DNA from: an uncultured Litoreibacter sp.
GTDB taxonomy: Bacteria > Pseudomonadota > Alphaproteobacteria > Rhodobacterales > Rhodobacteraceae
Reading direction: 5' to 3'
NCBI RefSeq assembly: GCF_947487515.1
Contig: NZ_CANKWO010000003.1
Location: 575,103 to 639,102 of the forward strand
Length of the DNA: 64,000 nt
Positions 17,904-32,045 of the stretch are shown here, piece by piece (positions within the stretch are counted from its first letter, which is position 1; each line of letters begins with the position of its first letter). The translations under genes and the position numbers were made by a program. Below the pieces are notes generated by a model that saw only the letters and a list, made by a program, of their open reading frames with translations, ran no database searches and was not told where the DNA came from.

Positions 17904-18028
17904 AAGGCTGTTTAGGGGGAGGCAGATGAAATGGGTCAGCTAACAGGGCCCTTTGGGTCACAAAGCGACCTTTAGAATAGATGCAGGACCAACCCATTTA
18001 TCTAATTTAGTGCATAAATAACAAGAGG

Positions 18029-18274
18029 TTACGCTTTAGTGAGCGTTGCCTCAATTTGGCGGATCAACTCAGTCATTGTCATCTCGAGGCCTTCGCTTAG
18101 GCCATTTATCGTCTCAAGCGTTGGCTGGTGCTTTTTCGTCTCCAAAAGAGATACATATCGCATCGACACATTCGCCCTGTGTGCGAGTTCTTCTTGCGTT
18201 AGCCCAAGCTCCAGTCGACGCTGGCGCACGACAAATGCAAATGAAGTGAGTAACTTATCCGATAGTTCTTCCAT
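18029..18274 (-). CDS. XRE-family helix-turn-helix regulator
   Basis: The 81-residue protein has an HTH_3 domain covering about residues 12-70: RRLELGLTQEELAHRANVSMRYVSLLE, then NGLSEGLEMTMTELI. Small regulators of this kind control restriction-modification, toxin-antitoxin or mobile-element genes. It lies at the left edge of the defence island, divergent from the three-gene set starting at 18514. GTATAC-centred palindromes in the shared upstream region (18313-18320 and 18453-18458) are candidate operators. Its target is not known. Confidence 0.85.
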   Translation of the reverse strand: MEELSDKLLTSFAFVVRQRRLELGLTQEELAHRANVSMRYVSLLETKKHQPTLETINGLSEGLEMTMTELIRQIEATLTKA

Positions 18275-18312
18275 CCTATCGGCATCTTGGGTCTTTACCG
18301 TTTGGTCTATGA

Positions 18313-18458
18313 AGTATACTGTGAATTTGTGTATTTAAGGTGCTCAAATCTGGTGTGATCACATCTCTTCATTGAATCATGTGAAACTGCTTGTGGGCTC
18401 AATTTACGCATATGTGATGTCTGCAATGCCGAGGGCAAAGTGATGAAATTAGGTATAC
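18313..18458. promoter_or_regulatory. Candidate operators between the XRE gene and the 18514 operon
   Basis: In this 239-base divergent intergenic region I see AGTATACT at 18313-18320, the perfect palindrome TGTGATCACA at 18354-18363 and a second GTATAC core at 18453-18458. Palindromes of this size are typical XRE or CRP/Fnr binding sites. No protein has been linked to them, so this is a sequence observation only. Confidence 0.3.
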
Positions 18459-18513
18459 ATACAATCAGTGCTTCTAGGCTGCAAAGTGCGGTCTTCGCTC
18501 AAATAAGATCAGA

Positions 18514-18936
18514 ATGATGGATAAGGTTCCTCCTCAAGCGCTAGATTCTGTAGAATCATTCCGGACGAGATTTACCCCAGTCTTGGCGTTGATGTCGGCT
18601 GCTCAAGATTCGTCCCTAACTGCAAAATCCTTAAGTGAGACTGAGCAGCAGCAGGCATGGGACGTTTTGGTGTCTGTTGTTCCAGAAGTTCTGGCGCAAT
18701 GTTCGGGCATAACGATCCAAACAGACCAAAAGGACACCTTTCTCACACTGGTGCTTTGGGATTTTTTCAATGGGCGTGAGATATGCGTCAGCGTCAACAA
18801 ACGTGGCGGATATAATCTGAGCATCCGATCCGAGGACATACGCTCGATGGAAACACAATTGCCTCTGGATCTGCTCTTTCTAAAATTACTGGCCCTAGAC
18901 TACACCCCCGAAGAACTTCGGGCTCTGACGGGCTGA
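18514..18936 (+). CDS. Hypothetical protein, first gene of a three-gene cassette
   Basis: I do not recognise this 140-residue protein. It is soluble, acidic and mostly helical in appearance, with a middle part rich in beta residues (DTFLTLVLWDFFNGREICVSV) and a helical C-terminus (LPLDLLFLKLLALDYTPEELRAL). It starts MMDKVPP and has no signal peptide. It is followed 20 bases later by a metallophosphoesterase and then by a Phd-type antitoxin gene, so it is probably the first gene of that small operon beside the restriction system. Confidence 0.6.
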   Translation: MMDKVPPQALDSVESFRTRFTPVLALMSAAQDSSLTAKSLSETEQQQAWDVLVSVVPEVLAQCSGITIQTDQKDTFLTLVLWDFFNGREICVSVNKRGGYNLSIRSEDIRSMETQLPLDLLFLKLLALDYTPEELRALTG

Positions 18937-18956
18937 CCAAACCGAGAGAATGTTCA

Positions 18957-19526
18957 ATGACAATCTGGTATACAGCCGACACACATTTCGGCCACGAAAA
19001 TATCATGCGATTTTGTAATCGCCCCTTCGTGTCAGCATCACAGATGGATGCAGCGATGCTGGAAAACATGTGGAAGGTGGTTGGCCCGGAAGACCAGCTT
19101 TGGATTCTGGGCGACTTTGCATTTGGCTCCAGGGCAAAGGACAGCGCTTATGTCGCGCAAATTTTCAATCAGTTGCCAGGAGCGGAACGTCATTTGGTAG
19201 TCGGCAACCACGATCACAAGCCAACGCTCGAACTGCCATGGGATTCAGTCTCTCAATTCGCTGAACTGCGAGACGGGCCTCAGAACCAGCTCAACACTTT
19301 GTGCCATTATCCAATGATTACATGGAACCACGCTCGAAGAGGTGCGCTGCAGTTGTTTGGCCACGTTCACAACAACTGGCGCGGATCGCGCAATTCCGTG
19401 AATGTTGGCGTTGATGTGTGGGACTTCATGCCGATCACCTTTGCCGATATTGCGCGGCGGGCAAAGAAGCTGCCGCCAAACAAACACTGGTGCGATGTCG
19501 AACATGGGGCAGAATCCGGCACATAA
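18957..19526 (+). CDS. Metallophosphoesterase family protein
   Basis: The 189-residue protein has the calcineurin-like phosphoesterase metal-binding motifs in order: D-x-H (TADTHFGHEN, residues about 6-15), GD (ILGDFAFGS, about 50), GNHD (VVGNHDHKP, about 84), H (LCHYPM, about 119) and GHVH (LFGHVHNN, about 138). All dinuclear metal ligands appear to be present, so it should be active on a phosphoester; the substrate is unknown. Small standalone members of this type are often carried on islands and phages. The next gene, a Phd-type antitoxin, starts 19 bases after its stop. Confidence 0.85.
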   Translation: MTIWYTADTHFGHENIMRFCNRPFVSASQMDAAMLENMWKVVGPEDQLWILGDFAFGSRAKDSAYVAQIFNQLPGAERHLVVGNHDHKPTLELPWDSVSQFAELRDGPQNQLNTLCHYPMITWNHARRGALQLFGHVHNNWRGSRNSVNVGVDVWDFMPITFADIARRAKKLPPNKHWCDVEHGAESGT

Positions 19527-19545
19527 TCGGCAGTGAGGCCAAGAT

Positions 19546-19737
19546 ATGAAGAGCTTCTCAACGACCCAATTGAGGCGCAGCACGATGGCGATCCTACAGG
19601 CTGCTCAATGTGAACCTGTCACGCACACCTGGTATGGAAAACCGCGCTTTGTGCTGATGTCGCACGAGCAGTTTGAATCAATACGACGCGCGCTAGACCA
19701 TACCAACATAAATGAGGGTACAGATAGTCAAGGTTGA
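19546..19737 (+). CDS. Phd/YefM-type antitoxin, no partner toxin seen
   Basis: The 63-residue protein resembles the N-terminal DNA-binding half of Phd/YefM antitoxins: it starts MKSFSTTQLRRSTMAILQAA and continues with PVTHTWYGKPRFVLMSHEQFE, the usual strand-helix pattern in which a target gene's 'prevent-host-death' domain ends. The toxin-binding tail is short. No Doc, YoeB or VapC-like gene follows; the next 312 bases are non-coding. It is probably coupled to the metallophosphoesterase gene 19 bases upstream. Confidence 0.75.
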   Translation: MKSFSTTQLRRSTMAILQAAQCEPVTHTWYGKPRFVLMSHEQFESIRRALDHTNINEGTDSQG

Positions 19738-20049
19738 GGGGCGGAAAGTGTGCATTCGCCGCTTTGCAGCGAGAACCTTGAGATAACGCAAAAGCGGAAC
19801 TTCAATGCCGAGCAGCCCGTTTGGTCCTTTCTCCGGACGGTGGGGGCCTTCGCTTCGAAGGCACGATCCATTTTGGTGGCGGCATGAGGAAGACGTTTGC
19901 TGCTAACCGAGGAGGCGCTTCGAACGTTTTGTCTGCCGAATAGTGGTCTTGAAAGTGGTGATAATTGGCAGCGAGCGTGAATGGCGCTTGTTGGTTCAAT
20001 CTACGTCCCCTAGTTTCAACTCATATCCCTCAGAGAGGACATTTTTGAA
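19738..20049. other. Non-coding stretch before the restriction-modification operon
   Basis: I find no convincing gene in these 312 bases. Short open frames lack recognisable protein character. The stretch TTTCTCCGGACGGTGGGGGCC near 19840 resembles decayed intergenic sequence common in this bacterial group. A GAGAGGA ribosome-binding-site-like sequence lies about 12 bases before the HTH gene at 20050. Confidence 0.4.
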
Positions 20050-20244
20050 ATGCCCAACGAAGATATTTTGACCGTGAAAGAGCTCGCTGAGTATCTCAAA
20101 ATCGCTGAGAAAACGGCGTATCGGTTCGCATCTGAGGGGAAGGTTCCCGGTTTCAAGGTGGGAAGTGCATGGCGGTTTCGGAAAAGCGAGATCGACCGCT
20201 GGATTGCCGAGCAGGAACAAAAACAAGAAGGGGAGCAGAAATGA
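20050..20244 (+). CDS. Excisionase-type helix-turn-helix protein, first gene of the hsd operon
   Basis: The 64-residue protein is almost entirely a MerR-like/excisionase DNA-binding domain ([37 protein letters not shown], shown in two pieces: helix [20 protein letters not shown] and wing [14 protein letters not shown]). It ends in a charged coil, [11 protein letters not shown]. Its stop overlaps the hsdM start as ATGA, so it is translationally coupled to the methylase. A role in timing or repressing hsd expression is likely by position, but it could also bind DNA for a lost mobile element. Confidence 0.85.
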
Positions 20245-21785
20245 CTGGTCAACAACAGGCAGAGGCATTGCGCCGCGAAATCTGGCATATCGCAAATAGA
20301 GTGCGAGGCGCGGTTGATGGCTGGGACTTCAAGCAGTTCGTCTTGGGCGCGTTGTTCTATCGCTTCATCAGCGAGAACTTCACAAACTACATCGAAGGTG
20401 GTGACGACAGCGTCGATTATGCTGGTATGTCAGACGTTGACATCCCCGATGACGTCAAAGTCGATGCGATCAAGACAAAGGGATACTTTATTTATCCCAG
20501 TCAGCTCTTTCAAAATGTGGCCAAGACCGCGAGCAAAAACGACAGCCTGAACACCGACTTGGCAGAAGTCTTTTCGGCGATCGAGGCTTCAGCGAGTGGC
20601 TACCCGTCCGAAGACGACATCATTGGCCTCTTTGCTGACTTCGACACCACCAGCAACCGCCTTGGCAACACGGTTAAGCAAAAGAACGAGCGTCTGACAG
20701 AAGTCCTCAAAGGTGTCGCAGGCCTGCCGTTGAAATTCGACGAAAACGAGGGCGACCTCTTTGGCGACGCCTATGAGTTTCTGATCTCAAACTACGCCGC
20801 CAACGCGGGCAAGTCAGGCGGCGAGTTCTTCACGCCAACCCACGTATCAAAACTCATCGCCAAACTGGCCATGCACAACCAAACCAGCGTCAACAAGATC
20901 TACGATCCGGCGGCAGGGTCTGGGTCGCTGCTTTTGCAGGCCAAGGATGAGTTCGACAAACACATCATCGAAGACGGCTTCTTCGGGCAGGAAATCAACT
21001 ACACCACCTACAACCTCGCCCGCATGAACATGTTCCTGCACAACATCAACTACGACAAGTTCAACATTCAACACGGCAACACGTTGATGGAGCCGCACTT
21101 TGGCGATGACAAGCCTTTTGATGCCATCGTGTCGAACCCGCCTTATTCGGTGAACTGGAAGGGTTCAGACGATCCAACCCTAATCAACGATGAGCGTTTC
21201 GCCCCCGCAGGCGTGCTGGCCCCAAAGTCGAAGGCGGATTTTGCCTTTGTCCTGCATGCGCTGCATTATCTGTCGGCCAAGGGGCGTGCCGCGATCGTTT
21301 GCTTTCCTGGTATTTTCTATCGTGGCGGGGCGGAGCAGAAGATCCGCAAGTATCTGGTCGACAACAACTATGTAGAATCGGTGATTGCTCTCGCGCCCAA
21401 CCTGTTTTTCGGAACGACCATTGCAGTGAACATTCTGGTGCTGGCCAAAAACAAAACCGACACGGCCGTTCAGTTCATCGATGCAACGGGGGAAGAGTTC
21501 TTCCGCAAAGGTGTTAACATCAACATCATGGATGACCGGCACATTGCCGAGATCATGAGGATGTTCGACAACAAGGAGAACGTGCCTCATGTAGCTGAAA
21601 CCGTCCCCTACGATACGATTGTCGAGAAGGACTATAACCTGTCGGTCAGTGCCTATGTTGAACCCAAGGACACCCGTGAGGTCGTCGAAATTTCCAAGCT
21701 GAATGCCGATCTTAGAACCACTGTCGCCAGAATCGACCAGCTGCGTGCGGACATCGACGCGATCGTTGCGGAGATCGAGGCATGA
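20241..21785 (+). CDS. hsdM: Type I restriction-modification methylase subunit HsdM
   Basis: This 514-residue N6-adenine methyltransferase subunit methylates the host recognition sequence as M2S1. The AdoMet-binding motif I is [12 protein letters not shown] at about residue 218, and motif IV is NPPY in [13 protein letters not shown] at about 297. The N-terminal HsdM_N domain begins [22 protein letters not shown] in two adjoining parts. ATG at 20241 is chosen over an upstream in-frame start at 20169 because it overlaps the HTH gene stop as ATGA. The similarity pattern fits the type IC group (EcoR124I-like). The stop overlaps hsdS as ATGA. Confidence 0.95.
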
Positions 21786-23044
21786 GCGCACAGGGGTTTC
21801 TGGAAAAGCTGCTGGATGGGGCCTCGGTGGAATGGAAATCTCTGGTTGCCATCTCAAAGAAAATCTCCTCTGGCGGCACTCCTAAAACGAGCGTCCGATC
21901 TTACTACGATGGCGACATTCCGTGGCTTCGGACGCAAGAAGTCAACTTTGGCAATATTTGGGATACCGGGGTCAAGATCACCGACGAAGGTTTAAGGAAT
22001 TCCAGCGCAAACTGGATTCCGAAAAATTGCGTCATCGTTGCCATGTACGGTGCCACAGTTGGAAAAATCGGAATCAACAAGGTCCCAATGACGACCAACC
22101 AAGCGTGTGCAAATATTCAGCTTGATCCAGAGGTTGCTGATTATCGTTATGTTTTTCATTTCTTGCGAAGCAAGTATGAGTACATAAAGTCACTTGGAAC
22201 AGGCTCACAGACCAACATAAACGCGGGGATTGTCAAAGCCCTCGAGGTTCCAATACCATGCCCTGAGGACCCAGAAAAGTCGCTTGCGATCCAAGCGGAG
22301 ATTGTTCGGATTTTGGATAGCTTCACCGAGCTGACAGCCGAGCTGACAGCCGATCTGACAGCCGAGCTTAAGGCCCGTAAGCAGCAATACAACCACTATC
22401 GAGAGCAATTGCTAGACTATGAGGGCCAAGACGTTGAGCATTTGCCGATGGGTGACGAGCGGGTGGGATCCTTTACGCGCGGCGGCGGCCTTCAAAAGAA
22501 AGACTTCGCAGAGTCTGGAGTGGGCTGCATTCACTACGGTCAGATTTACACCCATTACGGAACCTATGCCCACGACACCAAAAGCTTTGTATCAGAAGAA
22601 TTTGCAAAGAAAGCCCGCATGGCAAAGCCCGGCGATTTGGTGATTGCGACAACGAGCGAGAACGATGAAGACGTCTGCAAGGCAGTCGCTTGGCTTGGCG
22701 ATGAGGAAATCGCAGTCAGCAGCGACGCATGCTTTTACTCGCACAAGTTAAACCCCAAATTTGTCGCCTACTTCTTCCAAACGGAGCAGTTTCAAAAACA
22801 AAAACGGGTTCACATTACCGGTGCAAAAGTCAGACGCGTCAACGCCGACAGCCTGGCCAAGATCCTGATCCCTGTCCCTTCACCCGAGGAACAAGAGCGC
22901 GTCGTCAACATCCTCGACAAGTTCGACACGTTGACCACCTCGCTCAATGAGGGCCTGCCGCGTGAGATCAAGTTGCGCAAGCAGCAATATGAATACTACC
23001 GCGACCTGCTATTGAGCTTCCCCAAACCCGAGGAGGCCGCGTAA
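21782..23044 (+). CDS. hsdS: Type I restriction-modification specificity subunit HsdS
   Basis: HsdS determines the DNA sequence recognised by both the methylase and the nuclease. The 420-residue protein has two target recognition domains (about residues 15-180 and 225-395), each followed by a conserved helix ending in [13 protein letters not shown] (about 200) or [13 protein letters not shown] (about 400). The central helix starts with a tandem repeat, [12 protein letters not shown], encoded by 12-bp units. In the EcoR124I/EcoR124II pair the copy number of such TAEL units sets the spacer length of the bipartite target. The start overlaps hsdM (ATGA), and the anticodon nuclease gene follows with no gap. 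Confidence 0.94.
22328..22375 (+). repeat. Tandem 12-bp repeat inside hsdS (TAEL units)
   Basis: GAGCTGACAGCC occurs at 22328-22339 and 22340-22351, followed by GATCTGACAGCC at 22352-22363 and a degenerate fourth unit GAGCTTAAGGCC. The in-frame repeat encodes TAEL/TADL units at the join between the two recognition domains. Copy-number change keeps the frame and alters the distance between the domains. Confidence 0.9.
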
Positions 23045-24220
23045 ATGAGCCAGACCCTCGAACAGATCGCACAGCAGCTGCGAGATGCTGACAAAAAGGT
23101 GCAGCTGATCTATGCATTCAACGGCACCGGCAAGACCCGCTTGTCCCGCGCGATGAAGGATCTGATCGCTCCCAGGCCCGAAGAAGGTGAAGAAGGCGAA
23201 CCCTCTCGCGAAAAGGTGCTGTATTACAACGCGTTCACCGAAGACTTGTTCTACTGGGACAATGATCTGCTGGGCGATGGTGAGCCCAAGCTGATGATCC
23301 AGCCAAACACCTTCACCGACTGGATCCTTGGTGAGCAAGGCAAGGGCAACGATGTCATTGCGAATTTTCAGCACTACACGAACAAGAATCTGACCCCCGT
23401 CTTCATGGAAAAGGATAGCCAGAAGGCCGGAGAGAAGACCTATCCTTCTGTCTCATTCTCCATCGCGACCGGCGACGACGAAGCCACGACGGGCATCAAG
23501 ATTTCAAAAGGCGAGGAAAGCAACTTCATCTGGAGCATTTTCTACACGCTGATGGAAGAAGTGGTCTCGGTTCTAAGTGTTCCCGAGGCCGATGATCGAA
23601 GCACCAACCAGTTCGACAAGCTCGAGTATGTTTTCATTGACGACCCTGTGAGCTCACTTGACGACAACCATCTCATTGAGCTGGCGCAGACCCTGGCGAC
23701 GCTGATCAAGTCTGCACCGCAGGACGGCCCCAAATTCATCATTACGACCCACAACCCACTATTTTTTAACGTTCTTTTCAATTCGCTGAAAAATGGCCTC
23801 AAGTATCGACTGTCCCACAATGAAGACGGAACGTACTCACTGGATCCCTTGAAAACTGACAGCCCGTTTTCTTACCACCTGCATCTGATTGAGAAGCTTA
23901 AGTCCGCATCGGAACGCGATGCGTTTGAAAAATACCACTACAACTTCCTGAGAAACATTTTGGAAAAGACGTCGACTTTTCTGGGATATGAAGATTGGTC
24001 AGACCTACTACCCAAAACTGCTGACGGGACCAGCGATGCCTATTTGAAGCGCATCGTCGACATCTCGAGCCACTCGAAACACGCGGGTGATGAGCAGTCA
24101 GAGCTCTCTAAAGATGATAAGCGAGTTCTTGGGTTCCTTCTGGGTGCTACTGCCAACAACAAATATGAGTTCCCTGAGCGGTATCGAGTGGCTTTGAAGC
24201 AGGACGAACAAAATGGTTGA
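23045..24220 (+). CDS. prrC: PrrC-like anticodon nuclease within the type I restriction operon
   Basis: PrrC is a latent tRNA-cutting enzyme held inactive by a type IC restriction complex and released when a phage inhibits restriction; it then cleaves a host tRNA anticodon loop. This 391-residue protein matches Escherichia coli PrrC throughout. It has Walker A AFNGTGKT (24-31), the PrrC-specific [17 protein letters not shown] (59-75), the ABC signature-like [10 protein letters not shown] (154-163), and Walker [12 protein letters not shown] (197-207). The proposed nuclease triad R-E-H is retained as R303, E307 and H343. It lies between hsdS and hsdR, as in the E. coli locus, with no gap after hsdS and an 8-base overlap with hsdR. 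It lacks an N-terminal insert present in E. coli PrrC, and the E-to-H distance is slightly longer. Confidence 0.9.
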
Positions 24221-27200
24221 GCAGACGAAAACCATCGCGGAAACGAAGAATTTCATCGTCCTCGATAAGTACACCAAAGAGTGGGACGCCGCCGATCGGT
24301 ACCAGAGCGAAGATGATCTGGAACGTGAGTTGGTTCAGGACCTGGTCAATCAGGGCTATGAGTTTATGCCTGCACTCACGACCCAAGAGGCCATGCTCGC
24401 TAACGTTCGGGTGCAATTAGAAGAACTGAACAACGTCAAGTTTTCGAATGAAGAATGGAAACGTTTTGCCGAGACTTACCTAGACAAACCCAGCGACAAC
24501 CTCGTCGACAAAACCCGCAAGATCCACGACGACTACATCCATGATTTCGTCTTTGACGACGGGCGCATCCAGAACATCTACCTCGTCGACAAAAAGAACA
24601 AGGCACGTAACAAACTGCAGGTGATCAAGCAGTTCGAGCAAGCCGGTACGCACGCCAACCGTTATGACGTGACGATCTTGGTCAATGGTTTGCCCTTGGT
24701 ACAAATCGAGTTGAAAAGGCGCGGCGTGGCGATCCGGGAGGCGTTCAATCAGATCCACCGGTATAGCAAAGAGAGCTTCAACAGCGAAAATTCCCTGTTC
24801 AAGTTCCTGCAGCTCTTCGTGATTTCGAACGGCACCGACACTCGGTATTTCGCCAACACGACCAAGCGTAACAAGAACAGCTTCGATTTCACCATGAACT
24901 GGGCGAAGTCTGACAATGAACTGATCAAAGATCTTAAGGACTTCACAGCTACTTTCCTTCAGAAGCGCACACTGCTGAACGTTTTGCTGCAGTATTCGGT
25001 CTTCGACGTCAGCGACACATTGCTGGTCATGCGCCCCTACCAGATTGCTGCGACAGAACGCATTCTATGGAAGATCAAGAGTTCATTTGAGGCCAAAAAC
25101 TGGAGAAAGCCAGAGGGTGGTGGCTTCATCTGGCACACCACTGGCTCTGGCAAGACCCTAACGAGTTTCAAGGCTGCGCGGTTAGCGACTGAGCTGGGAT
25201 TTATCGACAAGGTTTTCTTCGTCGTGGACCGTAAGGATCTCGATTACCAGACCATGAAGGAATACCAGCGATTTTCCCCTGACAGTGTCAACGGCTCTGA
25301 CAGTACCGCCGGGTTGAAGCGCAACTTGGGTAAAGACGATAACAAAATCATCGTCACGACGATCCAGAAGCTGAATAATCTAATGAAATCAGAAGGTGAT
25401 CTGCCGGTGTACGATCAGCAGGTGGTCTTCATTTTCGACGAGTGCCACCGCAGTCAGTTTGGCGAGGCGCAGAAGAACCTGAAAAAGAAGTTCAAGCGAT
25501 TTTATCAGTTTGGCTTCACCGGAACGCCGATCTTTCCTGAGAATGCACTTGGGGCTGAAACGACCGCCAGCGTGTTTGGACGTGAGTTGCATTCCTATGT
25601 GATCACTGACGCCATTCGCGACGAAAAGGTTCTGAAATTCAAGGTCGACTACAACGATGTACGTCCCCGGTTTAAAGCCATTGAAACAGAGCAAGACGAA
25701 AGAAAGCTCAGCGCAGCTGAGAACAAGCAAGCGCTGCTTCATCAAGAACGTATTCGAGAAGTTTCGCAGTACATACTGAACAATTTCCGTCAGAAAACCC
25801 ACCGGATGCATGCGGGAAGCAGTGGCTTCAACGCTATGTTCGCCGTCAGCAGTGTGGATGCGGCCAAGCTCTACTACGAAACCCTAAACGCTCTGCAGGC
25901 AGACAGTGAAAAGCCGCTGAAGATCGCGACGATCTTCTCGTTTGCGGCCAACGAAGAGCAAGACGCGATCGGGGACATTCAGGACGAGAGCTTTGATGTG
26001 TCAGCGATGAATAGCAGTGCGAAGGAATTTTTGAGCGCCGCAGTCGAAGACTATAATGCTTTTTTCAAGACGAATTTCAGTGTCGATAGCAGTGGTTTTC
26101 AGAACTACTACCGCGACCTTGCCAGCCGGGTTCGCTCGAAGGATATCGACCTGCTAATTGTCGTCGGCATGTTCCTTACCGGCTTTGATGCTCCGACGCT
26201 CAATACCTTGTTTGTTGACAAAAACCTCCGGTACCATGGCTTGATGCAGGCGTTCTCCAGGACCAACCGGATCTACGATGCAACGAAGACATTCGGCAAT
26301 ATCGTAGCTTTCAGGGACCTTGAACAAGCGACAGTTGATGCGATCACGTTGTTCGGTGACAAGAACACAAAGAACGTTGTGCTGGAAAAGAGCTACGACG
26401 AGTACATGAATGGTTTCGTTGATCAGGAAACCGGTGCGGCGCGACGCGGGTTCATTGATGTTGTGAAGGAGCTAACCGAACGCTTTCCCAATCCGGACGA
26501 AATAGTCAAAGAAGAAGACAAGAAGGAGTTTGCAAGGCTCTTTGGTGAGTATCTGAGAGTCGAAAATGTGCTTCGGAACTACGATGAATTCTCAGCATTG
26601 AAGGCCTATCAGGGCCTAGACCCAAAAGACGCTGATGCCGTCGAAGAGTTTAAGCAAAAGCACTACTTGAACGATGAAGACCTTCGTGACTTGGAGGCAA
26701 TAGACCTACCCTCAGAGAGGGCGATTCAAGATTATAGATCGTCGTACAATGATATTCGCGATTGGCTACGTCGAGAAAAGTCGTCTGCTGAGCAAGAACA
26801 GAACACTATCGACTGGGATGACGTCGTTTTCGAGGTCGACCTTCTGAAATCGCAAGAGATCAACCTCGACTACATCCTCGAGTTGATCTTCGACAAGAAC
26901 AAGAAGGTGAAGAGCAAGGGAGATCTGATTGAAGATGCCCGGCGTGTCATTCGCGGCAGTCTTGGCAATCGGGCAAAAGAGAGTCTGATAGTGGACTTCA
27001 TCAACCGGACTGATCTCGATCAGATTGATGACAAGGCTGGTGTGATCGACGCATTTTTTTCATTTGCCCAAGCGGAGCAACGCAAGGAAGTCGAGGAGCT
27101 TATCAAGTCAGAAGATCTAAATTCTGACGCCGCAAAGCGTTATATTTCGGCTTCCATAAAACGCGAATTTGCAAGTGAAAACGGTGCCGACCTAAATGCC

Positions 27201-27314
27201 ATACTTCCCAAAATGAGCCCACTAAATCCGCAGTTTCGGACTAAGAAGACGACTGTCTTCGAGAAGATTTCGGCCTTTGTCGAAAAGTTCAAAGGGGTCG
27301 GCGGGCAAGTCTAG
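24213..27314 (+). CDS. hsdR: Type I restriction enzyme subunit HsdR
   Basis: HsdR is the translocating nuclease of the R2M2S1 complex and cuts unmethylated DNA at a distance. The 1033-residue protein has the N-terminal PD-(D/E)xK nuclease ([10 protein letters not shown] then [10 protein letters not shown], about residues 150-172), then the SF2 translocase motifs [11 protein letters not shown] (about 310), DECHRSQFG (about 410) and FTGTPIF (about 436), and helicase motif VI near FSRTNRIYD. Similarity is to the type IC (EcoR124I) group. The start overlaps the end of the anticodon nuclease gene, so the restriction subunit and its guarded toxin are translated together. Confidence 0.95.
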
Positions 27315-27332
27315 CGAAAGCGTTGACGCTGC

Positions 27333-28250
27333 CTAGGAGGGGCGGTTCGCTTCAGCTTGTTGCCAGTCATGGTAGGTCTGCTTCGATCCTTTGACCTTCC
27401 ACTCCAGGCGGCCGTTGCTGTTTCGGTCTAAGATGACGGCTGCGGCGGCTGAAGGACTATTGAAGGACCAAGGTTTCGTGAACCTGAGTTTTTGGCCCGC
27501 GTCCGCGACCAGGACACCGTCTGTGACGAGCTTTTCCTTCAAGCCGCCGTAGCTTTGTTGGACATAGCCGGTCTCGGTGAGCGCCTCGGACCCTTCCAGC
27601 ACAACAAATTCGCCATCTTCTTCGACAGCGGTCGCTTTGACGCCGCTCTTGTGGCGGATCTCGAACTGCACATCACCTTCTGTTCGCTCGTCGACCGGCT
27701 TCGCTGTCTGTGTCACCGCGCGCGGTTGTGGTTTGAGCAAATCCAGGCCAATCACGGGCAGGATGATGCGCAGGTTTGATAGAAACTGCTCCATATTGGC
27801 GATGTCGGCCTCTGGCAGTCGTCGTCTGCTTGTGTCCGGCTGAGTGCCATTGTCCAACGTGACGCGGCCTGCTTGGGCGGCTTGCTCTATGAGCCGCGCC
27901 TCAAGGTATTCCGCGTGCCCTTTGGATAGGTCGTCGTCACTTGTGGTGATGGTGATGGCTGTTTCCCAGAAATCTCTTTTGATCGCGCTTTGCTTGATCC
28001 TCTCAGCCACAGAGTTCCCAGAGCCAATATAGGCGCGGGATGCACCGGCCTTTTCTGGATCAGGACCGGATAGTATGTAGATGCCGGTCCGATCGACCTC
28101 TTCACGAGCGGTCAGATCGCCGAAAGCTGAAGCCCCGCTTACAAAAAGCAAACCTGTCCAACCATGGATCGTCGCTTTTCGCAGCCCGGTTGGCTTTCCG
28201 TCTACGAGGAAAAGCTGGATTGTTCGACCGAATAAGGCCTCTGTCGACAC
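27333..28250 (-). CDS. GIY-YIG nuclease family protein with DUF4357 tail
   Basis: The 305-residue protein has a GIY-YIG nuclease-like module at about residues 55-135: TGIYILSGPD then RAYIGSGNSVAERIK, with an Arg and a Glu (EYLEARLIEQA) where catalytic residues are expected. The C-terminal 50 residues (SPSAAAAVILDRNSNGRLEWKV) match DUF4357, a small domain common beside restriction genes. It is convergent with hsdR, with only 18 bases between stops, and forms the right edge of the defence block. Whether it cooperates with the restriction system is unknown. Confidence 0.85.
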   Translation of the reverse strand: MSTEALFGRTIQLFLVDGKPTGLRKATIHGWTGLLFVSGASAFGDLTAREEVDRTGIYILSGPDPEKAGASRAYIGSGNSVAERIKQSAIKRDFWETAITITTSDDDLSKGHAEYLEARLIEQAAQAGRVTLDNGTQPDTSRRRLPEADIANMEQFLSNLRIILPVIGLDLLKPQPRAVTQTAKPVDERTEGDVQFEIRHKSGVKATAVEEDGEFVVLEGSEALTETGYVQQSYGGLKEKLVTDGVLVADAGQKLRFTKPWSFNSPSAAAAVILDRNSNGRLEWKVKGSKQTYHDWQQAEANRPS

Positions 28251-28857
28251 GAGTTACTCCTTAAAAGCATTATTGGTAGCAATTTGTCTGTTGTGAACCG
28301 TAACTGCGACGGTACCAACACGTTACGCAGGAAGTCTAACGTGCAATAAGAATTTTTTGCATTGGTGTTCTTAATGCGCGCGACTTGTCGATCCTGTCCA
28401 ATGTCCGCAATGCGGGATGCGAGCGCAGCATCTCCACCAGTTGGCCAACGGCAGGAAAGGGCCGACTTGTTGGTCAAACCGAGATCGTTTAGTAGGATTG
28501 CGGCGATGCGGCTAACGGCAGGAACGAGCCCAGACTGTGAATTCGAATTTTCGGGCTGCATGCGTTCGCAGCACGAAAATTGCCACAATTGCGTAATTTC
28601 AAACGCTGCATTGCGGCCGAAAAACCGGCCATTCACGCAAATCGCAGAGAAGATATGACAGCCAAGGATCAAGTCGCGGGGTTCTGCAACCTTTCGTCAC
28701 AATAGGGCCAATCGCTACTTTCGAGAAGAGTCTCCCAAAATACTGATGGCCTTGTCAAAATCAGCCGCGTAGAATTCACAGTGTTTCACAAGAAATTGAA
28801 CTGTTTTAAACGCCGATCGACAGCAACGCGAGTTCAGGTCTTGCACAGCTCACTAGT
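28251..28857. other. Intergenic region holding one copy of a dispersed repeat
   Basis: No credible gene is seen in these 607 bases. They contain the 79-bp repeat at 28456-28534 and, just upstream, CCAATGTCCGCAATG (near 28399), which is also part of the other repeat copies. The remainder (28540-28857) looks like AT-richer decayed sequence before the DUF4123 gene. Confidence 0.5.
28456..28534 (+). repeat. 79-bp direct repeat, copy 1 (left of type VI cassette)
   Basis: This copy begins AAAGGGCCGACTTGTTGG and ends GGAACGAGCCCAGA. It appears identical base for base to 32044-32122. The two copies lie on the same strand on either side of the type VI cargo cassette. Confidence 0.93.
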
Positions 28858-29982
28858 TTGAATACTATCGCAGCATTAGATTTAATAAATATTTTTAGGC
28901 TGCCAAACGTGAACGCAGACAATCGTATTGATGACTATTGGACGGAACAGTCTACCGCGCCTGAAACGCTATCCAAACCTCATCTGAACATCGAGATTAT
29001 CCAAGGCATTGAGCCGCTGGGCGCCCAGTTTAGTGTGGACACTCCTAAGTCAGTACCGGAGGGCGTGCATGAGCCGCTGTTTGGCCAAGTAGATCCAACA
29101 CAGTTTGAACTAGAGCAAGTAGGGGGCGATCTTGTAAAGGTGCCTCTGCTCCAAACTTATGCGATATTAGATGCAGCCAAGATTCCAGGCTTGCCTGAAT
29201 TGTTGATCGCGTCAGGGCTTGAGCATCGCTGCCTGTTCCAGGGCGGTGCATATGAAGAGCTGAAAGACGTGGCTCCGTGGATTGTGCGTCTGGAGGAAAG
29301 TAACAACCTCACTCGAAACCTGTTCACCCGGTCGGGTGCTGGGTGGCATCTGTGGGATGATGAACCAGGGATTTACCTGCGCTCTCGCGGTACATTGGAC
29401 GAGATGTGGGGGCACTTTAGAAAATTCACGAGGGTACAGGACGAGCAAGGAAAGTGGTTTTACTTCAGGTTTTGGGAACCAATACTGTTTCAAACCCTTG
29501 CAGAGGGGGATTCCCAGTGTGGCGTTGTAAACGGCTCATTTTTTAAGGGTAATTCGATTGTTATTGTTGATCCATTTTTAGGATGCATAGTTGGCATCAC
29601 TGCACACAGTCTCACAGTTAATACGAAGCCTTCTAGGTTTGGTGATGGAGATTTTCGGCTGTTGAAGCAATTTAGCCGCAATTTAGGGAACAGGAAAATA
29701 GCATCTCTGCTTCAAGGTGAGGAGGGGAAGTGGAGCGACTTTAGTGGTGTATCAGCTAAGGAGTGCTTGCATAAAGTTACGGCTGCTGTTGAGCAAGCTC
29801 ATGCAATAGGCCTGAAAAAACCATCTCACTTGAAGCGGTTTGTTAAGATGTGTGAAGAGATGGGGGAAGTATCCTTTGGGACGGATCCCTTTTGTAGAAC
29901 CATCAGCGCTGGTCACACGCCTGCGCGGCTCATTGCGGAACTCGAGTTTGATGTAAAAGATCTTATGAAAGAGAGTGCTTAA
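28858..29982 (+). CDS. DUF4123 protein, type VI secretion effector adaptor
   Basis: DUF4123 proteins are chaperone/adaptors (Tap/TEC type) that load a neighbouring effector onto the VgrG spike. The 374-residue protein has the family core at about residues 95-215: LLQTYAILDAAKIPGLPELL, GLEHRCLFQG, VAPWIVRLEES, TRNLFTR and a later HFRKFTRVQDEQGKWFYFRF. The frame opens with TTG at 28858 and has no good ribosome-binding site; GTG at about 28909 (MNADNRIDDYW), with AGG upstream, may be the real start. The stop overlaps the effector start (TTAATGG). No VgrG gene is in the window, so this is an orphan cargo set. Confidence 0.85.
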   Translation: MNTIAALDLINIFRLPNVNADNRIDDYWTEQSTAPETLSKPHLNIEIIQGIEPLGAQFSVDTPKSVPEGVHEPLFGQVDPTQFELEQVGGDLVKVPLLQTYAILDAAKIPGLPELLIASGLEHRCLFQGGAYEELKDVAPWIVRLEESNNLTRNLFTRSGAGWHLWDDEPGIYLRSRGTLDEMWGHFRKFTRVQDEQGKWFYFRFWEPILFQTLAEGDSQCGVVNGSFFKGNSIVIVDPFLGCIVGITAHSLTVNTKPSRFGDGDFRLLKQFSRNLGNRKIASLLQGEEGKWSDFSGVSAKECLHKVTAAVEQAHAIGLKKPSHLKRFVKMCEEMGEVSFGTDPFCRTISAGHTPARLIAELEFDVKDLMKESA

Positions 29983-30878
29983 TGGGGCAACATGAAGAAA
30001 TCTGTCAGGTCTGCCCTTGCACGTGCTGTCCGAAATATGAGGAACTTAACGATTGGGCTGACAAGCTTGAAGAAATAGCCGTCAGCATCGAGCGGGATGA
30101 GTGGTTTTATCTCGAGGTTAAGGCCGACATTGTCGAGAATGGATGGGAATCAGATTATGCCCGCATCGGCATTAGTGGATATCGTGACCGAACGGTGCCG
30201 AGCCAAAACGCAGCGGCGCTCATTCAGCATTATGAAGGATTACCCGCCGAAGTAATCTTCGCGGAAGATCTGACGCCCGCTGTGCTCGACAACGCAACAG
30301 CGCGACCTGGGCTGGCTCGGGTGATTAGAGAACGTGCGGAAAACGCGCGTAATCTCGCACAGCGTGGCTTAGATTATTGTCAGACTGACAGCAATTATAT
30401 TGGTCAGGATGCAGATCCGGTTTTAGATTACTTTTGCACCCTTGATCCCGACAAAATCGACGCCGACGTTTGGGATGAGCTGTATCGTATCGGATATATC
30501 GATTTTGCGACGTATGATGATGTAGGATATCGTGTTTTATCAGACAGACTGATGCGTGCGGAGCTTGCGGCTAGTATTGCAAGCTTAGTGTTTGCATTCA
30601 GGGCGGGGTTGGTAGCCTTAGCCCGAAACGCATCTTATGGGTTGATGAGACTGACACGTACCCAGGCTAGGCGGCTCGCCTCAATAGGTCGTCGGCGGAT
30701 GCCAACGGACGTCGTCAAAAAGACTGATCTGAGACGTTCTTCACTAGCGGCTCAAGCCGATAATGAAGCCGGTATTATGAACGGTTTCTTGGGTATTGGT
30801 CATGCCGTGCCTTGGTCGCAAATGTCTGCAAAGATGAAAATGGCTTTTCAGCATAGTTATATGCCGACATGGAGCTGA
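29982..30878 (+). CDS. Type VI effector candidate, truncated by a probable frameshift
   Basis: The 298-residue product starts MGQHEEICQVCPCTCCPKY and has no PAAR domain. Residues about 195-225 are hydrophobic (AELAASIASLVFAFRAGLVALA). It directly follows a DUF4123 adaptor and precedes a small immunity-like gene, the standard adaptor-effector-immunity order. The frame stops at 30878 just after SYMPTWS, but the +1 frame continues smoothly (EFGLPPWRATQAEEL and on) to 31134. I therefore think a one-base insertion near 30876 has cut off the toxin tip. The toxin family is not recognised. Confidence 0.7.
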   Translation: MGQHEEICQVCPCTCCPKYEELNDWADKLEEIAVSIERDEWFYLEVKADIVENGWESDYARIGISGYRDRTVPSQNAAALIQHYEGLPAEVIFAEDLTPAVLDNATARPGLARVIRERAENARNLAQRGLDYCQTDSNYIGQDADPVLDYFCTLDPDKIDADVWDELYRIGYIDFATYDDVGYRVLSDRLMRAELAASIASLVFAFRAGLVALARNASYGLMRLTRTQARRLASIGRRRMPTDVVKKTDLRRSSLAAQADNEAGIMNGFLGIGHAVPWSQMSAKMKMAFQHSYMPTWS

Positions 30879-31134
30879 GTTTGGTCTGCCACCGTGGAGA
30901 GCAACGCAGGCGGAGGAGCTTCAAGACCTCTTTAACACGGCGGTTGGCCGCGTGCGAAACAATGCTCACACAGTTCGTATTGTTATGAAGCCATATGCTG
31001 TCCGAGGGTATCCGGCAGGTCCTCCTGCCAGAATGACTGAGTTTAGGGCCACACTTAACGGCCAGGAGTTTTACTATTATGAGCTACGCGATATCGGAAA
31101 ATTCGTGAGTGCTGGTCTGGCGAGGACTCGATAA
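30879..31134 (+). pseudogene. Out-of-frame toxin C-terminus of the effector at 29982
   Basis: In the frame one base ahead of the effector, about 85 codons are open and end at TAA 31132-31134. They encode LPPWRATQAEELQDLFNTAV, then HTVRIVMKPYAVRG, ARMTEFRATLNGQEFYYYEL and GKFVSAGLARTR. This mixed helix-strand tail ends two bases before the immunity candidate, as toxin tips normally do. A single-base indel near 30870-30880 would join it to the upstream 298 codons. Whether the full toxin is ever made by slippage is not known. Confidence 0.65.
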
Positions 31135-31135
31135 G

Positions 31136-31600
31136 ATGGATGCAGATGCACTGTTTTATTTCGTTTCAGATAGGCCTGTTGGGGAAGTCATGACGTTCGT
31201 TCAGGACAACCAACTTATCCCTAACACCAACTATTATGAGTTTCCTTGGTTTGGTGGGGTGCAACGGTCTTTTGATAGCTTGAGAGACTTAATCGAGTTT
31301 TTGGAAGGCCAACTTGGGCATGAATACCCACTCTACTTCAAGGATAGAAAAGGGGATCACTACTTCGCTGGCGTGACGGGGGATGGGCTACTTGTTTTTG
31401 GGATACCCTACTTCGGGAAGACACCAGATAGCCTTGCAAAGACTGTGCGGAGGTATGGTGGTTTTTATGGGTACATTGGTGCAGGGATGCCTGAAATTGG
31501 AAGCTTGGAGCAGTTTAAACTAGATCCAAAATATAAGCCTTCGAAGATACTAGATGACGGGCATATTGTCATTTATGGCGAAGCCAGTGATCTTGAGTAA
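31136..31600 (+). CDS. Candidate immunity protein for the adjacent type VI effector
   Basis: The 154-residue soluble protein starts at ATG 31136, one base after the stop of the toxin C-terminal frame; the open frame extends nine codons upstream. I do not recognise the family. It has many aromatic residues (YFVSDRP, NYYEFPWFGG, YGGFYGYIG) and no signal peptide, which suits a cytoplasmic immunity protein. Its role is inferred from its position behind a DUF4123-effector pair. It is intact although the effector is frameshifted. Confidence 0.6.
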   Translation: MDADALFYFVSDRPVGEVMTFVQDNQLIPNTNYYEFPWFGGVQRSFDSLRDLIEFLEGQLGHEYPLYFKDRKGDHYFAGVTGDGLLVFGIPYFGKTPDSLAKTVRRYGGFYGYIGAGMPEIGSLEQFKLDPKYKPSKILDDGHIVIYGEASDLE

Positions 31601-31941
31601 GTCTTGCAGCCAAGTTCTTACTCAGAAGACACCTACCATTGATTTGTGAAGTCCACGGAGAGCAACTCGCATTCGCACCCCCACAATTTTGCACATATTG
31701 GCAGCCTGTTTCACGTTGCAAGATTGCATATTTGTAACAGGCATTTCGACGGTCTCACTTCGCGGGCCTCGAATTGTTCACCAAACCCACGTGCAGTGAA
31801 TGGATAGTTTGGAACTACCCGGTTTTGATCCCGCTGAATGGCCGCTATGGTGGATTCTACTGCAGTGCCGAAAGTGAGATGCTGCACATGCGAAGGTTTT
31901 CTGCGCGGGCATCGACCGCGGCTGCAAAAGGCGGCTCCGTC

Positions 31942-32045
31942 CCGCAGACTGCTAGTTCGCCTACGCTGGGATTTTGCGGTCGCCGCGAATGGCTGGTTCG
32001 ACGGGCCGCACTGCAGCATTCCAGATCACCGGCCAATGTCCGCAA
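31942..32045 (+). repeat. 104-bp dispersed repeat, copy 1
   Basis: This copy begins CCGCAGACTGCTAGTTCGCC and ends GGCCAATGTCCGCAA. It matches 37394-37497 base for base as far as I can compare by eye. It is joined directly to copy 2 of the 79-bp repeat. Confidence 0.92.

Follow-up and report, generated by a model that had tools for sequence, protein, structure and literature searches.

A PrrC-type anticodon nuclease gene within a type IC restriction-modification operon of an uncultured Litoreibacter sp.

The 64,000-nucleotide stretch of contig analysed here (hereafter the window), derived from an uncultured Litoreibacter sp., contains a canonical type IC guard locus, in which the gene of an ordinary member of the widespread PrrC family is embedded in an hsd operon. 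By analogy with the E. coli system, the operon very likely provides restriction together with a second line of defence, an anticodon nuclease that would cut tRNA-Lys(UUU). Its five genes are arranged in the order HTH-hsdM-hsdS-prrC-hsdR and are fully coupled (Table 1). The HTH gene and hsdM share an ATGA (4-nt overlap), as do hsdM and hsdS; the stop codon TAA of hsdS (23042-23044) is followed without any gap by the ATG of prrC at 23045, and the end of prrC, with its stop codon at 24218-24220, overlaps hsdR by 8 nt from 24213 on. Promoter and terminator patterns at the operon were not above those of shuffled sequence.

Table 1. Genes of the hsd operon (positions in the window) and motifs of the PrrC protein (residue numbers).
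Feature	Position	Strand	Product	Basis
HTH_17 / excisionase-type small DNA-binding protein, first operon gene	20050..20244	+	64 aa	Pfam HTH_17, 64 bits
hsdM, type I methyltransferase, EcoR124/EcoprrI-like	20241..21785	+	514 aa	TIGR00497, 608 bits
hsdS, specificity subunit	21782..23044	+	420 aa	Pfam Methylase_S, 2 stretches
prrC, ABC-ATPase / anticodon nuclease	23045..24220	+	391 aa	PADLOC PrrC and alignments
hsdR, restriction subunit	24213..27314	+	1033 aa	EcoR124_C, 232 bits; TIGR00348, 685 bits
PrrC Walker A	residues 25-31			alignment
PrrC signature	residues 154-158			alignment
PrrC Walker B/D-loop	residues 195-206			alignment
PrrC H-loop	residues 232-240			alignment

Assignment of the embedded gene to the PrrC family is based on the PADLOC PrrC profile, which matched the protein with 457 bits (E 1e-137), the second-best model reaching 63 bits; a match to Pfam AAA_13 scored 67 bits. 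As a reference for E. coli PrrC (EcoPrrC) and its operon EcoprrI (prrABCD), we used a locus on an IncY plasmid of E. coli strain 7.1994 (L033), annotated as ‘anticodon nuclease’, the 396-aa PrrC of which has D222, D287, R320, E324 and H356 exactly at the numbers published for EcoPrrC (PMC2610378, PMC3014915). The Litoreibacter protein is 53.7% identical to it over 369 aligned residues; R303, E307 and H343 are aligned with the nuclease triad R320, E324 and H356, and D272 is the equivalent of D287. A first-pass annotation of the window had proposed a PrrC-type anticodon nuclease within a type IC hsd operon, similar to E. coli PrrC, provided with this very triad and inserted between hsdS and hsdR without a gap and with an overlap, and in all these points it proved right. 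The guard architecture that it invoked likewise corresponds to the arrangement described for E. coli (PMC3014915).

Conservation was assessed across 92 tabulated loci. One of them (L043) was left out of the alignment, its prrC frame not having been recovered intact, and the remaining 91 sequences comprised Litoreibacter, six plasmid loci of the same branch, two distant plasmid loci, 79 genome loci and three further genome loci; the 79 are the best 80 of at least 579 relatives less L043, ranked by similarity to the query and not a random sample. The R/E/H triad and the Walker B aspartate were kept in 91 of 91 sequences, and the D287 equivalent in 88, being absent from L090, L102 and L214 (in the last of which the residue depends on the alignment). 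Moreover, a conserved block of 15 residues at positions 60-74 is a candidate for the PrrC box, a 15-residue element of the N-domain. The Litoreibacter protein carries the ABC ATPase motifs, without a zinc-hook insert and without any cysteine. A PrrC search of the host genome (3.34 Mb, 8 contigs) returned this single locus only.

The surrounding hsd genes are of the type IC family: HsdM is recognised by the hsdM equivalog and HsdR by EcoR124_C, each is 78% identical to its counterpart in L033, and the central conserved region of HsdS contains three four-residue TAEL-type repeats (22334-22369; two in the HsdS of L033). Such repeats between the half-sites of HsdS are what we take to be the hallmark of type IC systems. 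The order of prrC and hsdR is common: in 90 of 92 loci, Litoreibacter included, hsdR follows prrC in the same orientation. The two exceptions, L035 and L037, have a different type I layout; they belong to a distant PrrC branch and run hsdR, TrlF-like ATPase or hypothetical protein, RNA-binding or regulator protein, hsdS, prrC and hsdM. Of those 90 loci, 89 have an intact prrC frame; the two genes overlap in 42 of these, 25 of them having an overlap of exactly 8 nt, and in seven hsdR lies 0.8-1.5 kb beyond prrC.

An AlphaFold model of PrrC built with 73 sequences had a pLDDT of 78.6 and a pTM of 0.64, with pLDDT below 50 at the recognition loop (272-275) and at 345-350, following H343. The best among the 50 Foldseek matches listed were Rad50 and SMC heads (TMq 0.23-0.37); complexes of Septu PtuAB and of retrons also matched, at low TM-scores, and none of the 50 was an anticodon nuclease by name. 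As for a solved structure, phmmer returned one meaningless match (E 0.49) and the profile search none at E 0.01. The predicted fold agrees with an ABC head and adds nothing about the nuclease part.

Silencing, trigger, cleavage and target we infer from EcoPrrC, following the guard model (PMC3014915, PMC2610378). The Hsd complex would modify and restrict DNA and at the same time keep PrrC silent; a phage product inhibiting the restriction complex on unmodified DNA would switch the ABC-ATPase head, a step that in E. coli depends on GTP/dTTP, whereupon the C-terminal R-E-H nuclease would cut the host tRNA-Lys(UUU) 5' of the wobble base, so that translation would stop.

That tRNA-Lys(UUU) is the target of the Litoreibacter enzyme we regard as probable, by analogy with EcoPrrC. 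The host has one tRNA-Lys gene, with anticodon TTT, and no CTT among 43 tRNA matches, each scanned with ARAGORN, in a draft assembly of 99.83% completeness (one match, L175, uncalled by ARAGORN, was read by eye as tRNA-Asp cut at a contig end). Compared by eye, its anticodon loop CTTTTAA is that of E. coli lysT and A73 is kept, with two of five pairs of the anticodon stem being different. D287 of EcoPrrC contacts the wobble base (PMC3014915). The recognition segment KTDSPFSYH, equivalent of EcoPrrC 284-294 (KYGDSNKSFSYH), is two residues shorter than in EcoPrrC and of a different type, and it might direct the same guard to another tRNA, such as tRNA-Glu(UUC), tRNA-Gln(UUG) or tRNA-Arg(UCU). 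This we consider unlikely, even though the substrates of PrrC may vary (PMC3014915) and EcoPrrC, when overexpressed, cleaves Arg and Glu isoacceptors too (PMC2610378). It should be added that host MnmA and MnmE scored above their cut-offs and MnmC_Cterm reached 59.5 bits versus a cut-off of 174.2, on account of which the host wobble base may carry cmnm5 and not mnm5, and its chemistry may differ from that in E. coli. What argues for tRNA-Lys nevertheless is that the short segment keeps both the D287 equivalent and the FSYH core, and that PrrC170 of Klebsiella quasipneumoniae, 35% identical to EcoPrrC, is reported to be specific for tRNA-Lys (PMC11555353). Furthermore, L035, which has a short segment, may be related to PrrC170, judging by the identity of its PrrC to that of L033 (36.7%) and by its S-prrC-M order; it has two genes beyond the four listed for PrrC170. 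If this kinship holds, PrrC proteins of the long and the short type would both hit tRNA-Lys, which would make it the likeliest target here as well.

Two other readings concern the protein itself. In the family of the host (295 genomes), nine loci, Litoreibacter included, encode an HsdR that is near-complete and 73% or more identical (one broken HsdR, in G569, was not counted); six have prrC, and in three (L190-L192) it is absent between hsdS and hsdR, which points to prrC being dispensable and would suit a nuclease that is silent or decayed in an operon devoted purely to restriction. Yet the frame is intact, the catalytic and ATPase residues are all present, and PrrC proteins about 85-88% identical are kept in L040 and L041, so that we hold a decayed nuclease to be highly improbable. 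Hardly any credence can be given to an RloC-like protein responding to DNA damage instead of inhibited restriction: the AAA_13 or Rad50-type head is common to RloC, but the type IC operon setting, the PrrC profile far above all others, the length of 391 aa and the lack of a zinc-hook/coiled-coil insert and of cysteine all speak for PrrC.

The first-pass annotation had also pointed to the excisionase-type HTH gene at the head of the operon and to the missing N-terminal insert of E. coli PrrC, taking both as hints that trigger or tRNA target might differ. Both observations stand, by Pfam and by alignment respectively; the interpretation is not supported by them. A lead of 22 residues before Walker A, as in Litoreibacter PrrC, was the norm (69 of the 85 sequences where the motif could be located), and only L032, L033 and L118 had a lead longer than 35 residues; the 16-residue insert is thus a feature of two E. 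coli sequences (L032 and L033), one other of the 85 having a long lead. An HTH leader directly upstream of hsdM was detected in 13 of 87 loci, Litoreibacter included, by an HMM built from most of those same leaders. Twelve of the 13 were assigned to the Alphaproteobacteria, either from their titles or from their kinship with the family of Litoreibacter, and among loci with named hosts the HMM found the leader in 7 of 12 alphaproteobacterial versus 0 of 18 gammaproteobacterial ones; in L105 and in the prrC-less L220 it was found by tblastn only. Since L220 has the leader and no prrC, and the distribution is alphaproteobacterial, the leader belongs with the hsd operon, not with prrC, and is perhaps its regulator. 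The leader, which tracks hsd, and the insert, which is peculiar to E. coli, were therefore dismissed as grounds for a different trigger. As for the surroundings of the two E. coli prrC operons (L032, L033), they lie on IncY plasmids and adjoin late promoter-activating and death-on-curing genes, presumably a P1-like phage-plasmid setting.

PrrC relatives are widespread. At least 579 were recovered in a scan of one genome per species (579 of 593 stretches), and the best 80 of these span several phyla. Within the class, a strong match (E < 1e-120) was present in 8 of 385 genomes, that of Litoreibacter included, and the other 23 matching genomes gave weak matches (E 2.5e-20 or worse), 16 of which lay in frames as long as those of RloC (658-897 aa). 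Matches were also found in 113 of 72,556 plasmid records. No tblastn match occurred among 50,697 phage records, and a phage origin of prrC was rejected on this ground, despite a PHROG of no known function that matches PrrC at 517 bits. In one of the prrC-less relatives, L191, a Fic/death-on-curing-like gene (81-689, identified by eye) is located between hsdM and hsdS.

Recognition segments were divided into type A, long (GDSNKSFSYH; 16 rows), and type B, short (DSPFSYH; 64 rows), types named after the alignment had been viewed, and the distribution of the two was followed over trees covering 80 loci. L214, missed by the pattern, was assigned to type A by eye (GAANKSF). Twelve of the 92 rows were dropped because HsdR or PrrC was short, truncated or absent, and five more for the HsdM tree (75 rows); all trees were quick searches under a simple model. 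On the PrrC tree without the segment columns, the type changed twice, and forcing type A into a single PrrC clade gave a likelihood above that of the tree from the free quick search (p-AU 0.915); with all columns the type changed once. On the HsdR tree there were 11 changes, a single type-A clade being rejected (p-AU 9e-58), and the HsdM tree also required 11. With shuffled labels the mean was about 15 changes and the lowest value 11 or 12; the HsdR tree, too, shows some clustering of types, 3 of 500 shuffles being equally low. Given 11 changes against a shuffled mean of about 15, the association of type with hsd lineage is mostly, not wholly, gone. As type A is compatible with one PrrC clade and is scattered over the HsdR and HsdM trees, prrC, like hsdS, appears to have been exchanged against more conserved hsdM and hsdR genes, and as a reading of the sequences such exchange between operons is well supported.

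The Litoreibacter operon is itself an example. Its sister on the HsdR tree is L214 (HsdR 94% identical, starred branch), which has a type-A PrrC of 52% identity; on the PrrC tree Litoreibacter groups with L040, L041, L034 and L042. Along the DNA, identity to L214 in 250-nt steps was 74-81% over the HTH gene and hsdM, 53-70% over prrC and 89-96% in hsdR from about 24.8 kb on. Further discordant pairs were L034/L218, L102/L103 and L093/L098. The PrrC of L214 forms a long branch and has the wobble-contact aspartate replaced, which perhaps reflects altered specificity or decay. Tentatively, the type IC operon may be seen as a conserved chassis and prrC as its exchangeable effector cassette, with two segment alleles swapped among similar hsdM/hsdR operons, also within the family of Litoreibacter; selection could then come from phage decoy tRNAs or inhibitors specific for an allele, or from different tRNA targets. 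Reportedly, to go by the title of Linder et al., the classical view is that of an anticodon nuclease gene inserted into an hsd region. No report of repeated exchange of prrC alleles was found in the literature searched, which left subscription papers mostly uncovered and gives no proof of absence.

Co-variation of PrrC with its partners was also considered. In pairs with at least 90% identity over HsdR 301-1033, the mean identity of HsdR 1-200 was 90.1% when types were alike (26 pairs) versus 83.3% when they were unlike (12 pairs), and lower HsdR bands gave no clear difference by type. Partial correlations with PrrC identity were 0.19 for HsdR 1-50, -0.01 for 51-100 and 0.17 for 151-200, the highest being that of HsdM 129-192 (0.32); block-wise they were modest and not confined to the N-terminal end of HsdR, several exceeding all 200 shuffles. 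An interface between PrrC and HsdR was not accepted on these data as anything beyond a lead, linkage or shared descent explaining them equally.

For all three congeners tested, DNA similarity to the window breaks off no more than 7 nt from the end of nrdJ (17903), and past this gene the GC content, 0.58 before it, is about 0.50; for both reasons the operon is placed within a genomic island (17904-32000). Convergent with hsdR is a gene for a DUF4357 protein (27333-28250, minus strand), matching the PADLOC candidate system PDC-S14 with 383 bits, and a distant relative of this protein (32%) adjoins hsdR in L219. Beyond it, on the plus strand (28858-31600), a DUF4123 gene is followed by two genes without family matches (29982-30878, none in Pfam and PHROGs; 31109-31600, none in Pfam, NCBIfam and PHROGs), a layout resembling that of type VI genes for an adaptor, an effector and an immunity protein.

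The E. coli-type restriction guard thus occurs, apparently intact, in alphaproteobacteria, on a chromosome as well as on a plasmid. Moreover, swapping of prrC alleles on more conserved hsdM and hsdR genes makes it testable whether PrrC diversifies in its tRNA target or in its escape from phage tRNA decoys.

Among the systems compared, EcoprrI (L033) shares with Litoreibacter the order hsdM-hsdS-prrC-hsdR, the 8-nt overlap of prrC and hsdR, the triad, the ATPase motifs and D287; the Litoreibacter operon differs by a PrrC of 54% identity without the 16-residue insert and with a short segment, by the HTH leader and by three TAEL-type repeats instead of two. Plasmid pZYMOP02 of Zymomonas mobilis subsp. 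pomaceae (L034) has all five genes, the leader included, with PrrC 82% and HsdR 80% identical; unlike the Litoreibacter operon it is plasmid-borne, and identity falls to 45% in the HTH protein and to 49% in HsdS over the 199-aa stretch compared. Pseudaestuariivita rosea (L040) and an uncultured Rhodobacteraceae (L041) are closer, with the same segment type, PrrC 87% and 85% and HsdR 91% and 93% identical, respectively, and they differ in HsdS (72% and 68%, the latter over a 317-aa stretch; HsdS identities for L034, L041 and L051 rest on partial frames). No HTH leader was found in L040 with the leader HMM. PrrC170, as described, is similar in joining PrrC to a type I restriction-modification system with anti-phage function; it is distant, and its genes are given as HsdR, HsdS, PrrC and HsdM (PMC11555353). 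Finally, RloC has in common with PrrC the ABC-ATPase head and the R-E-H anticodon nuclease, and is set apart by its 658-897 aa, its zinc-hook insert and, according to PMC2610378, its rare linkage to restriction-modification genes, the same source giving 341-416 aa for PrrC proteins, a range into which the Litoreibacter protein falls.
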